Positions 42,988-46,969 of a stretch of DNA of 64,000 nucleotides are shown piece by piece. Source of the stretch: Filobasidium wieringae. Lineage: Eukaryota > Basidiomycota > Tremellomycetes > Filobasidiales > Filobasidiaceae. Location of the stretch: positions 458,731 to 522,730 of the forward strand of contig BCIV01000016.1 in NCBI GenBank assembly GCA_001600055.1, given 5' to 3'. The number at the start of each line of letters is the position of its first letter. Positions within the stretch are counted from its first letter, which is position 1. Position numbers and translations under genes: made by a program. The notes under the pieces are model-generated. The model did not search any database. It was not told the DNA's origin and worked only from the letters and a program-made list of their open reading frames with translations.

Positions 42988-45900
42988 TCAATTTGGGGAG
43001 CCTTTTAGTTCCCTTTGTATAATGTGTTCCCATCGCGGATCGATGGGGATATCTCCCTGCACCCCTGCACGAGTCAGGTATCTCAACTTATTCCATATGA
43101 CGTCTCCGTCAAGATAACATCCTTTGAGCCACCTCGTTGCTTCTCCTACGGCTACGTCCTTCTGGTCGGGTTTGTCTTTAAAAGCCCTTCTGGCATGCAA
43201 GACCCTACGGTTATCAAAGAAAACTAGGTCGCCCTCTTGCATGGTGAACTCGTATTGCGACTCTTTCCTGTCAAGTAATTCCTCAAATGCAGAAAGTGAG
43301 GCTGGAAGATCATCTGTTGCGCCGCCGGGAAGACCCAATTTCGAAGATTTCACGACAATGGGTAACGGTGCTTGAAACGGTGGAGAATAGTTGATCGCGT
43401 GAAGACCCTTGCCTGAAGGGTGTTCCTCTAGAGTTGGGTGCCATCTCTGATACCATTTCCCGTCGTTATCATAATGGAATGGCACTGGCGTTTTCCTCAA
43501 GATGTCAAACATCCTCGGTTCTTGCTTTTTAAGCTGATTGGCAGCGGCAAATGCGTCCACGAAATAGGAAGAGCCACCGTCCACCTTGTTCCTCAAACAA
43601 TGCAAAGCTTGGAAACGGGGAGGAGATTCGAAATACCTGATAAATTCAGTCTCAGTCAATTGAAAGCCGCTGACCTTTGATCAGCATCGACCTACAGTAG
43701 ATCCTGATGGAAGCCAAGATCCACATCAGTGTACGCGATATTCTTGCTGTCCTTCAATGCCTTCACATTCCAGGTTTCACCGTAGAATGTATGTCGTAAC
43801 TCTCCGATCTTCTCCATCGCAGCTCGCAGCTCGCAACCTGCATCGTCCTTTTTCTCGGTTGGAACTCCCGTGAGAACGACTATACCATATGAGGTCACCT
43901 GCGCAAGAGCAGCTAACATGGCAGTTGGTGACGTTTTGAATTCCTCGTAGGGAATTCGGAGGGTAGGGGAATCCAGTAACCCTTGAGTAGTGTCCCAAGT
44001 CTTTGTAGGGAAAAAGATCGGCTCTTGTCGCGTGTAAACAGAGGATTGCTGCTGACGAGCTAGGTCCCTGAGAGGAAAAAATGACTCCGCATGCGAAACT
44101 CCTGAAGTGGATGTGGCATGAATACCGCTCCAACTAACTGAAAGACCGATTTGCTTGTCAACCGTTCTCATTCTCAACTGTTCTGGAACCAGCTCGCCGG
44201 TTGAAAGATAATCGGAGCTCCTATGCAAGCGTTGTCTGGTAGACTGCTGACTACACAACGGGCAAGGGCAATTGTCTCGAAGCCAGTTGTATGGCAGGAT
44301 CAGCTTGCCAGGTGAGGTCTCCGAACTAATGGTAACAGCCGTAGCATCTGCACTTGCCGCCCAGTCGTGACGATTCACCTCGTCTTCAAGTATAGGTAGA
44401 ACCCTAGCTTTTTTCTCAACATCAAGCGTACTGGGTTTACTTTCGTCAGTATCGACTTCCTCCGCTACATCCAATACATGGCCTCCTTTGGCGATGTCTC
44501 TTTCATGATTGTCTTGAACGGCGATCGCTCCATCCTTAGCGGTGACTCTGACGGTGTCCCCGTTGCGAATACGTCCCTCGAGTAGAGCCAAAGTCAACTT
44601 TGTCACGACTTCATCCCGGATGACCCTTGCAACAGCTCTCGCACCGTATTGCTCTGAGAAACCCATATCTCCCAGGAGATGGACAGCGTCCTGGTCAACA
44701 TTGAGTTTGATGTGTCTCTCATCGATACGTGACTGAACCTCTGAAAGTCTCAAACGGACAATGTCGTCCACAGCGGATCGAGGCAAGCTGTTGAAGATGA
44801 TTGTCTCGTCTAGCCGGCCTAGGACCTCGGGTCTGAACCAGCTTGTAACGTATTCCATCACTGATTTTTTGGTACCAGGCGTGACCGTCCCATTCTTAGT
44901 GGCACCCGCCTTTTGAAACTCTGGAGAGCCCAAGTTTGAGGTCAAGCAGATGATAGTATTCTTGAACGATACCTTGCCGCCTTGTCCATCCGTCAGTTCA
45001 CCTTCTTCCAAAATTTGCAAAAGGATGTTCTGAATATCGGGATGTGCTTTCTCGATCTCATCCAGTACGACAACCGCATAAGGCCTGCGCTTCACTGCAT
45101 TGGTCAACTGACCACCTTCTTCGTATCCAACGTATCCGGGAGTAGCGCCCAACAACCTTGAAATGTCGTGTTTCCCGCTCAATTCCGACATGTTGATCTG
45201 AATGAGCCCCTTTTTCGAATCGCCGAACAGGAATTCCGCCATTGCCTTTGTCAAACTGGTCTTTCCAATACCACTAGGTCCGAGCATTAAGAAAGAAGAC
45301 AACGGGCGGTTCGGAGCTTGAAGACCCGCTCGTGACAGTCGAATGGCTTTGGCCACTGATGAAATCGCTTCGTCTTGACCGATAATCTTTGCCCTCAAGG
45401 CATCTTCAATGTGTAAAAGCTTCTCCGTCTCTCCTTGTCGCAGATTCTCCACAGGGATACCTGTTGACCGAGCGATTACTCTGGCAATATCGGACCCGGT
45501 CAACCTATCCCTAATCATCATGTCTTCATTCTCGACCTCCTCCCCAGCGTTCTCAGGTGGCAATTTCGCTTTCAAAGCAGGTATCGTCGAGTACCTAAGC
45601 CTCGATGCCAGTTCAAAGTTTCCTTCCCTTTGAGCGATTTCTAATCGGTTGGTCTCCTCGTCGATCTGTCGTTTGACGTTCTTGATATCCTTTACTCGTG
45701 CTCGTTCCCGTTCCCAGATGGATGTCAAACGGCCTTGCTCCTCCTTCTTCTTCTCGATAAGCTCATCGACACTCTTCAGACGGTCCACCGAATATGTATC
45801 GCTTTCATTCTTCAATGATTCTCGTTCGATTTGTAAGGTGGTTATCTCCCGCTCAAGGTTTTCCAGGTTCACCGGTTTAGACTGCGGCACAGGGAAACAG

Positions 45901-46969
45901 TCGGTGAGATCATTTAAAATCGATGAAGAGAAAGATGAGTACTCACTTCCTGAGACAGCTTCAAGGCGGAAGCAGCTTCATCGAGCAGATCGATAGCTTT
46001 ATCGGGCAGGAATCGATCAGGAATGTATCTATCCGAATATACCGCAGCCTGAACCAACGCCGCATCCGAAATCTGCACTCCAAAATGACTTTCATAACGA
46101 GGCTTCAGTCCTCTTAGTATGGCTACAGTCGCCTCTACACTCGGAGCATCTACCATAACGGGTTGAAATCGACGAGCAAGCGCTTGGTCCTTTTCGATAT
46201 ATTTCCTGTATTCGTCCAGCGTTGTTGCACCGACGAGCTGAAGGCCTCGAGCGAGAGCGGGCTTGATCATATTTCCTGCGTCCATGGAACCTTCCGCCTT
46301 GCCTAGGTTCATAAGGGTATGAAGTTCGTCTATGAAACAGATGACTCCTCCTTTGCCACTTTCTCTTGCTTCATCTTGAGCTTCTTGGATATCCGCTAGC
46401 AAGTTCTTGAACTTCTCCTCGAATTGCCCTCGAATACCTGATCCGGCTAGCAGCGATGCAAGGTCTATTGTCAGAAGTCTCTTGTTTTGCAAAGACTCTG
46501 GAACTTCCTTATTGATGATACGTTGAGCTAAACCTTCTAGGATAGCGGTCTTTCCAACACCGGGTGAACCTAGAAGAACAGGGTTGCTCTTGGTCTTCCT
46601 GGATAGGATCTGGATCGTCCGCCGGATCTCGTCGTCCCTTCCGATAACAGGATCAAGGGCGTTTTCTCTTGCCATCTCCGTCAGGTCCACACTGTATTGC
46701 TTCAGAGTCTCTCCCTTTTGCCTCTCCCCTCCCATTCCCATATTCATACCGCCTCCAGGAAATCGCATTCCTCCAAAACCCCCGCCACCTCCAGGAGGCA
46801 TTCCGTTACCTCCAGGAGGTCCATTTCGAGAAGCATATCCTCTATTACTAGCTATAGACTGAAGCGAAGCTTGTCGCAGGCTGGCAACAGCACTTGCAGG
46901 AGTTGGTCTCGTATGGCGAATGGAAGTGGATAGTAGACGGTTTCGAGCTATGGTTGATGGTTTTAGCAT
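42988..46969 (-). CDS. HSP78: fusion: mitochondrial Hsp78/ClpB disaggregase + gamma-butyrobetaine dioxygenase-like enzyme, 1285 aa
   Basis: Exons on the minus strand are 46969-45947, 45881-43696 and 43636-42988, introns 65 and 59 nt, phases close. Residues 1 to about 45 are basic and Ser/Arg-rich like a mitochondrial presequence, followed by a Gly/Pro/Met-rich linker. AAA+ domain 1 has Walker A GSPGVGKTA and CFIDELHTLMNLG; a coiled middle domain follows. AAA+ domain 2 has GPSGIGKTSLTKAMAEF, VVLDEIEKAHPD and SEQYGARAVARVI. Hsp78 normally ends here (about residue 800). Instead exon 2 continues without stop or splice through an acidic linker (about 800-833) into a BBOX/TMLH-type 2-oxoglutarate dioxygenase. 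That part has WLRDNCPCPLC (874-884), the Fe-binding FHQDL (His1066, Asp1068), the distal His in RRVLHARRAF (His1217) and the 2OG-binding Arg region. BBOX hydroxylates gamma-butyrobetaine to carnitine; INYSPPFQAPLP and the end of the domain look closer to BBOX than TMLH. Confidence 0.93.

Follow-up and report, generated by a model that had tools for sequence, protein, structure and literature searches.

We analysed a 64,000-nucleotide stretch of Filobasidium wieringae DNA (contig BCIV01000016.1, positions 458,731 to 522,730; hereafter the window), in which a gene on the minus strand at 46969-42988 encodes, in one frame, a mitochondrial-type chaperone and an oxygenase. The gene comprises three exons (1285 codons plus a stop; calculated precursor of 142 kDa), and its splice sites were set by sequence and homology. 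In order, the protein consists of a presequence-like N-terminus, an Hsp78/ClpB disaggregase without N domain, an acidic linker and a gamma-butyrobetaine-dioxygenase-like (GBBH) enzyme. Exon 1 (45947..46969) encodes the presequence-like start (amino acids (aa) 1-45), a Gly-rich stretch and the first AAA+ module (D1); exon 2 (43696..45881, 2186 bp) the middle domain, the second ATPase module (D2), the linker, a Zn-type N-terminal domain and the first half of the dioxygenase; and exon 3 (42988..43636) the second dioxygenase half, with the distal His, the 2-oxoglutarate Arg and the last cage Tyr. Intron 1 (45882..45946, 65 bp, GTGAGT..CCGCAG) falls where the protein of a relative, P0001, is uninterrupted, and intron 2 (43637..43695, 59 bp, GTAGGT..ATCAG) follows an exon end (HQDLL) that is the same in 7/8 exon-type fusion relatives. 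A preliminary description of this DNA had a single 2.2-kb exon run from the second AAA+ domain into a complete dioxygenase. Exon 2 does have an open frame that leads from the Hsp78 middle domain across D2 and the linker to the dioxygenase HxD motif, but the enzyme is incomplete there, its distal His lying in exon 3. The stretch is present once in the genome (19.8 Mb, 33 contigs).

The first half is identified as Hsp78/ClpB by two AAA+ modules, each with Walker A (GSPGVGKT at aa 134 in D1, GPSGIGKT at aa 542 in D2) and Walker B (FIDELH at aa 212, VVVLDEIEK at aa 611) motifs, and by a D2-small domain. Its Pfam matches all exceeded their cut-offs: AAA_2 at aa 533-700 (195.2 bits), AAA_lid_9 (117.5 bits) and ClpB_D2-small (66.9 bits; aa 707-787, 44544..44786 on the minus strand), the last domain of this half. 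Its matches in the Protein Data Bank (PDB) were ClpB and Hsp104. The equivalog cut-off of the NCBIfam model TIGR03346 was not reached (957.8 versus 1232.1 bits), and the match begins only at profile position 151, because the N domain is absent. The first 30 residues have a net charge of +5 and no acidic residue, so that, by composition only, the start is presequence-like and agrees with the mitochondrial location proposed earlier for this half; within aa 1-45, NRGY-AS resembles a processing site. The D1 pore loop of Hsp78/ClpB disaggregases is expected to carry an aromatic residue, and here it reads SGIRGQ (aa 177-182, exon 1), without one. When 120 Hsp78 rows were examined, Tyr was found in this loop in 0 of the 81 that matched the pattern, which read SGIRGQ or a variant, indicating a trait of this Hsp78 group. 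The Hsp104-like gene on contig C17 of the same genome retains KYKGE at this place. Separately, a Lyophyllum gene model (P0191) joins Hsp78 domains to PF01571/PF08669, presumably of aminomethyltransferase type, and may be an annotation merger.

The second half pairs a GBBH-like N-terminal domain (aa 870-931, 44112..44297 on the minus strand; PF06155, 25.3 bits, cut-off 22.8), which contains WLRDNCPCPLC, with a TauD core (PF02668, aa 986-1244; 156.9 bits versus a cut-off of 27), a combination that places it in the GBBH family. The first part of the core, from aa 986, lies at 43696..43949 (minus strand) and includes the HQD motif (aa 1066-1068). As had been described, WLRDNCPCPLC, the HxD motif and the distal His are intact, and the 2-oxoglutarate Arg is likewise. 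In an alignment with human BBOX1 (PDB 4bg1), counted by hand, 8/8 key residues were aligned and identical: the iron ligands His202, Asp204 and His347, the 2-oxoglutarate residue Arg360, and the aromatic cage of Tyr177, Trp181, Tyr194 and Tyr366. BBOX1 Asn191, the three zinc-site Cys and one aligned His are also kept. The Cys motif and the stretch with BBOX1 Tyr177, Trp181, Asn191, Tyr194, His202 and Asp204 are kept in 10/10 of the fusions described below; P0001 has Gln at the zinc-site His position.

Among NCBIfam models the window protein fits gamma-butyrobetaine dioxygenase (TIGR02409) best, at 205.1 bits against a cut-off of 414.75; the stand-alone homologue P0045 likewise stays below it (194.8 bits), and on P0001 TmpA outscores TIGR02409 by 0.8 bits. 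The trimethyllysine dioxygenase model TIGR02410 did not reach its cut-off either (153.7 versus 268.3 bits). Given the TIGR02409 score under its cut-off and the TmpA score of P0001, we named the enzyme gamma-butyrobetaine-dioxygenase-like. Two BBOX1 residues are replaced in the window dioxygenase, Tyr205 by Leu and Asn292 by Ser, at positions on the substrate side; Leu at the Tyr205 place also occurs in P0045, P0003 and P0011. These scores and replacements would suit a mitochondrial relative acting on another substrate, which would be equally compatible with a fusion. Such an enzyme is nevertheless rather unlikely here, considering that the top NCBIfam model is gamma-butyrobetaine dioxygenase and that the iron ligands, the 2-oxoglutarate Arg and all four cage positions are kept. 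The genome, moreover, encodes a separate trimethyllysine dioxygenase (TMLH) above cut-off, so that a later carnitine step would be expected. A different substrate may hold for yeast Fmp12, a mitochondrial dioxygenase of Saccharomyces cerevisiae that is described as resembling Candida albicans Bbh1 and Bbh2 and as having no assigned substrate (PMC5348986). Fmp12 is unfused as described there.

The in-frame junction put forward in the preliminary description recurs in nine further sequences. P0001 (1199 aa, 72% identical to the window protein) keeps one frame from D1 through the whole dioxygenase and continues through both intron places, as an RNA-derived sequence or one from an intron-poor genome would. 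P0002 (JGI, 726 aa) represents the same exon, with the same junction and 98% identity. A protein search with the dioxygenase half, restricted to candidates of at least 0.55 times the fusion length, returned 44 proteins, with P0001 ranked first. When the dioxygenase half alone was used and the best 120 of 507 proteins were examined, seven more frames among the matches listed ran from the Hsp78 tail into the dioxygenase (P0052, P0056, P0058, P0065, P0074, P0107 and P0109). All seven open within, or shortly ahead of, the tail that follows the last Hsp78 strand, and four (P0052, P0058, P0065 and P0074) have unrelated residues before that strand, as an intron would give.

These sequences bear directly on whether two neighbouring genes were joined by a sequencing error or in a gene model. 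Some long models with a dioxygenase domain are probably annotation mergers, such as P0006, which combines a kinase, a superoxide dismutase, a cyclin and the dioxygenase. At the present locus no gene model is involved, the DNA being one open exon, and the junction is repeated in P0002 and P0001, which come from other data sets, and in the seven further frames. An artefact is thus extremely improbable; an assembly error was rejected on the strength of the independent sequences with the same junction, which confirm at the sequence level that the fusion is real and not a product of chance or local error. A scan of viral contigs for relatives' DNA, aimed at a linker codon test, gave only a 27% match (L015).

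The linker that joins the halves has three parts on the minus strand. Part 1 (DNHERD..VAEE, aa 798-816, 44457..44513) can be aligned to the tail in which stand-alone Naganishia Hsp78 ends, part 2 (aa 817-833, 44406..44456) is hypervariable, and part 3 (RVLPILEDEVNRHDWAAS, aa 834-851, 44352..44405) resembles in its first half a motif with which some tremellomycete Hsp78s end (ARTLEVLEDGVEE). Among nine fusions, with P0002 excluded as a near copy, mean pairwise identity was 0.60 in part 1, 0.13 in part 2 (17 window residues, 21 gapped columns), 0.60 in part 3 (RVLPIL..HDWAA) and 0.81 in the first part of the dioxygenase core. A pattern built on part 3 matched, of the 117 dioxygenases P0045-P0161, the seven fusion fragments only. 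The first half of part 3 contains a conserved R-x-[LF]-P-I-L motif, and a pattern for this half occurred in the last 70 residues of 15/118 listed Hsp78 rows and nowhere in the other 82164 residues. The Hsp78 ends with a like motif belong to Kwoniella, Cryptococcus, Tremella and Naematelia; the pattern was absent from the Vanrija and Naganishia rows of the same 118, and the homology is judged by pattern and position only. MAFFT placed the Naganishia tail ENVLEIIEDEEE against part 1, with part 3 as an alternative counterpart.

By sequence, the linker combines an old-looking acidic Hsp78 tail with a hypervariable middle and, after it, the conserved R-x-[LF]-P-I-L motif, and we infer a fusion point directly after the former C-terminus of Hsp78. 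In stand-alone Hsp78s of Kwoniella, Cryptococcus and Tremella (P0165-P0168, P0172, P0175, P0177 and others), R-x-L-[EN]-[VIT]-L-[ED] stands within a variable acidic tail; the sharing of this C-terminal R-x-L motif hints at a putative binding site. A structure model of P0001 (66-row alignment; mean predicted local distance difference test score (pLDDT) 79.6, predicted template modelling score (pTM) 0.45) is confident for the middle domain, D2 and most of the dioxygenase, and only moderately so for D1. Between the two folded halves, linker residues 726-746 fall below pLDDT 50, which fits a flexible tether; at a pTM of 0.45 the model does not predict the mutual placement of the halves. In a structure search with this model the best 50 matches were ClpB, Hsp104 and ClpC chains, any dioxygenase matches ranking lower.

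The preliminary description had left open whether the dioxygenase stays tethered or is released after import. We scored segments as presequence-like, on composition only and with no trained predictor, when a 30-mer had a net charge of at least +3 and at most one acidic residue, and applied the same test to linkers with 25-mers. By this measure the first 30-mer was presequence-like in 92/108 listed stand-alone dioxygenase homologues (P0045-P0161, 117 proteins, minus nine: the seven fragments of fusions and two short proteins, P0049 and P0050), compared with 1.6% of 5400 internal 30-mers. No presequence-like 25-mer was found in the linker of any of the ten fusions (0/10), and all ten linkers are acidic (net -5 to -12), as had been noted for the window. 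In smut proteins that join the same dioxygenase family to a COX10-type partner, presequence-like stretches precede the dioxygenase in 7/7 tested rows (16 listed). The absence of such a stretch from the acidic linkers, unlike in the smut COX10 rows, makes the fusion look like a protein that stays whole. We therefore consider it fairly likely, on sequence grounds, that one polypeptide is imported by the Hsp78 presequence and stays tethered.

Several observations weigh against this reading. The AAA+ part is joined to the dioxygenase in one frame in 3/10 fusions only (the window, P0002 and P0001), of which the window and P0002 are nearly identical, and in the other 7/10 just the final stretch of the Hsp78 tail shares the frame. 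Since a protein search by its design recovers open frames, a relative whose linker contains a stop would appear as two shorter proteins and may have been missed. Cleavage may occur inside the hypervariable linker, and proteases other than the mitochondrial processing peptidase (MPP) could cut there; 9/10 fusion linkers keep an Arg two positions ahead of [LF] (R-x-[LF]-P/Q-I-L). Finally, a 47-bp intron candidate lies in the linker at 44477-44431 on the minus strand (GTATTG..CCCAG, with a branch-like CTGAC and a weak 5' site), the splicing of which would end the protein directly behind the Hsp78 tail.

The first of two alternatives is a tandem precursor whose linker, after import, is cleaved by MPP or a different protease to give a free Hsp78 of about 85 kDa and a free dioxygenase of about 51 kDa. 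Fungal precedents exist in Arg5,6, Etp1 and Rsm22-Cox11 (PMC8847149), and the conserved Arg, together with a linker middle that is hypervariable and of low confidence in the P0001 model, would suit a cut. The ten acidic linkers without a presequence-like 25-mer, set beside the smut rows, speak against it, and the R-x-L motif, which resembles the C-terminal motif of stand-alone Hsp78s in 15/118 listed rows, need not be a cleavage site. We gave R-x-[LF]-P-I-L little weight as an MPP site for that reason, and regard processing into two enzymes as a minority prospect. The second alternative, in which alternative splicing or a separate promoter yields a stand-alone Hsp78 and a separate dioxygenase from one locus, is improbable. 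The linker intron scan, which required a branch of the form CT[AG]A[CT] and one of a set of 5' hexamers, produced two candidates, including the one that would put a stop behind the Hsp78 tail, and both have weak 5' sites (GTATTG, GTAGCG) compared with those of the placed introns (GTGAGT, GTAGGT). The junction is flanked by in-frame Met residues at aa 747, within D2, and at aa 912, past the Zn-type motif (aa 874). With no in-frame ATG between them the whole dioxygenase cannot start separately in this frame, and a separate start is unlikely. Linker length, furthermore, varies among relatives while the frame stays open, in a search that favours open frames.

Six-frame searches of the genome, in which the best candidates only were scored, found no separate Hsp78 and no second GBBH-type gene except a TMLH paralogue. 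With the dioxygenase half they returned the fusion gene and this paralogue, on contig C20 (L012), which scored 315.4 bits with TIGR02410 against a cut-off of 268.3 (exons joined by eye), so that the early carnitine step seems to be encoded too. The paralogue also starts presequence-like. With the Hsp78 half the searches returned the fusion gene, the Hsp104-like gene on C17 (42-54% identical) and an insignificant match on C2 (E value 0.14).

The origin of the fusion was examined in a tree of 44 rows and 265 columns, built from 42 chosen of 161 dioxygenase-type proteins together with the window protein and a TMLH outgroup; P0056 was cut at HQDLL, and the Wallemia, Calocera, Phaffia and TMLH rows had long branches. 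The ten fusions formed one clade (support 100/99), nested in a clade with four Naganishia and two other proteins (98/94), in which the order of rows, including the one nearest to the fusions, had support of only 81/35. This places the fusions near Naganishia, a member of the Filobasidiales (Tremellomycetes). In Naganishia the Hsp78s (P0162-P0164) stop shortly after the tail that is alignable with linker part 1, and the dioxygenases are separate proteins (P0045, P0047 and P0048). Assuming that locus numbers follow chromosomal position, the Hsp78 and dioxygenase loci lie far apart in 7/7 tremellomycetes compared: N. vaughanmartiniae (QFC22_000509 and QFC22_004977), K. shivajii (IL334_005458 and IL334_000230), Kwoniella sp. 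DSM 27419, K. newhampshirensis, C. amylolentus, Cryptococcus sp. DSM 104549 and V. humicola. The simplest reading of these sequences is one fusion event that did not arise from an old neighbour pair. In an ancestor near Naganishia, a GBBH-type dioxygenase gene would have come to lie in frame directly behind HSP78, and its product, probably mitochondrial already, would have lost its own presequence on fusion.

Two consequences drawn in the preliminary description lose ground on these data. The fusion had been proposed to place the last carnitine-synthesis step in the matrix; the presequence-like starts of most stand-alone homologues suggest that the dioxygenase step was probably mitochondrial before the fusion, as Fmp12 is reported to be (PMC5348986). 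A link between dioxygenase dosage and heat shock is likewise weakened, since a coarse scan of the 725 bp upstream, in which two-unit and gapped forms were not sought, found no three-unit heat-shock element with at most one mismatch. The whole window held 19 such sites with at most one mismatch and 0 exact ones, corresponding to 0.2 expected in 725 bp.

Combining these results, we infer that the gene would be translated as a single chain of about 142 kDa, which the Hsp78 presequence would bring into the matrix before being removed, leaving about 138 kDa. Escaping cleavage, the Hsp78 part would form its usual ring, with one dioxygenase, predicted to hydroxylate gamma-butyrobetaine, attached behind each D2 module by a flexible acidic tether some 25-40 residues long. 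Whether selection has kept such an arrangement, a disaggregase ring with six trimethylammonium-type dioxygenases at the D2 exit face, as mutually helpful is a more speculative step, possible but doubtful. If true, the help could consist in refolding of an unstable iron enzyme, or in its clustering in the matrix.

Convergent neighbour frames lie at 41658-42842 on the plus strand, one with a ribonuclease III domain and the last ending 145 bp from the fusion stop, and the upstream neighbour (47695-49035, minus strand) encodes an FAD-binding (PF01494) protein.

Relative to known systems, the fusion shares with fungal Hsp78/mitochondrial ClpB (nearest named, Naganishia P0162-P0164) two AAA+ modules, the middle domain and an alignable acidic tail; it has no ClpB N domain and, unlike Naganishia Hsp78, continues past the tail into a 2-oxoglutarate dioxygenase. 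With BBOX1 (PDB 4bg1/3ms5) and P0045 of Naganishia adeliensis (51% identical) it shares the Cys-motif N domain, the TauD core, HxD..H, the Arg and the cage, whereas its dioxygenase has no presequence-like stretch of its own and is attached to a chaperone. The same dioxygenase family is found with other mitochondrial-type partners in the smut CCDC90-like/dioxygenase/COX10 proteins (P0009-P0017, P0020, P0021, P0023-P0027), which make up 16/44 rows of the fusion-length search (domain order determined for P0009). These differ in their partners, in a separate tree branch (2/16 rows used) and in the presequence-like junctions of the seven rows tested; coming partly from unannotated sources, they may be real tandem precursors. 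HMGL-like domains are joined to the same dioxygenase in P0029 and P0030, so that, with a ribosomal L2 model (P0008), the enzyme appears repeatedly beside mitochondrial-type proteins: Hsp78, COX10, HMGL-like and L2.

Fused mitochondrial precursors are known in fungi, and the cases named in one source undergo cleavage inside mitochondria or are predicted to do so (PMC8847149). In S. cerevisiae, MPP cuts Arg5,6 at an internal site to give two enzymes; for S. pombe, Etp1 and Rsm22-Cox11 are listed as composite precursors whose internal signals are predicted (PMC8847149). Like these, the present gene encodes two mitochondrial-type proteins as one fungal precursor; unlike in those cases, none of the ten fusion linkers holds a presequence-like stretch in the composition test. 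We found no report of an Hsp78-dioxygenase fusion in open-licence PubMed Central full texts. The present gene unites a ring-forming unfolding machine with a metabolic oxygenase, with no cleavage signal detected, and recurs in several diverged relatives. The fusion provides a natural experiment on whether a large C-terminal cargo is tolerated or used by a ClpB-type ring, and on how an enzyme can trade its own presequence for that of a neighbour.

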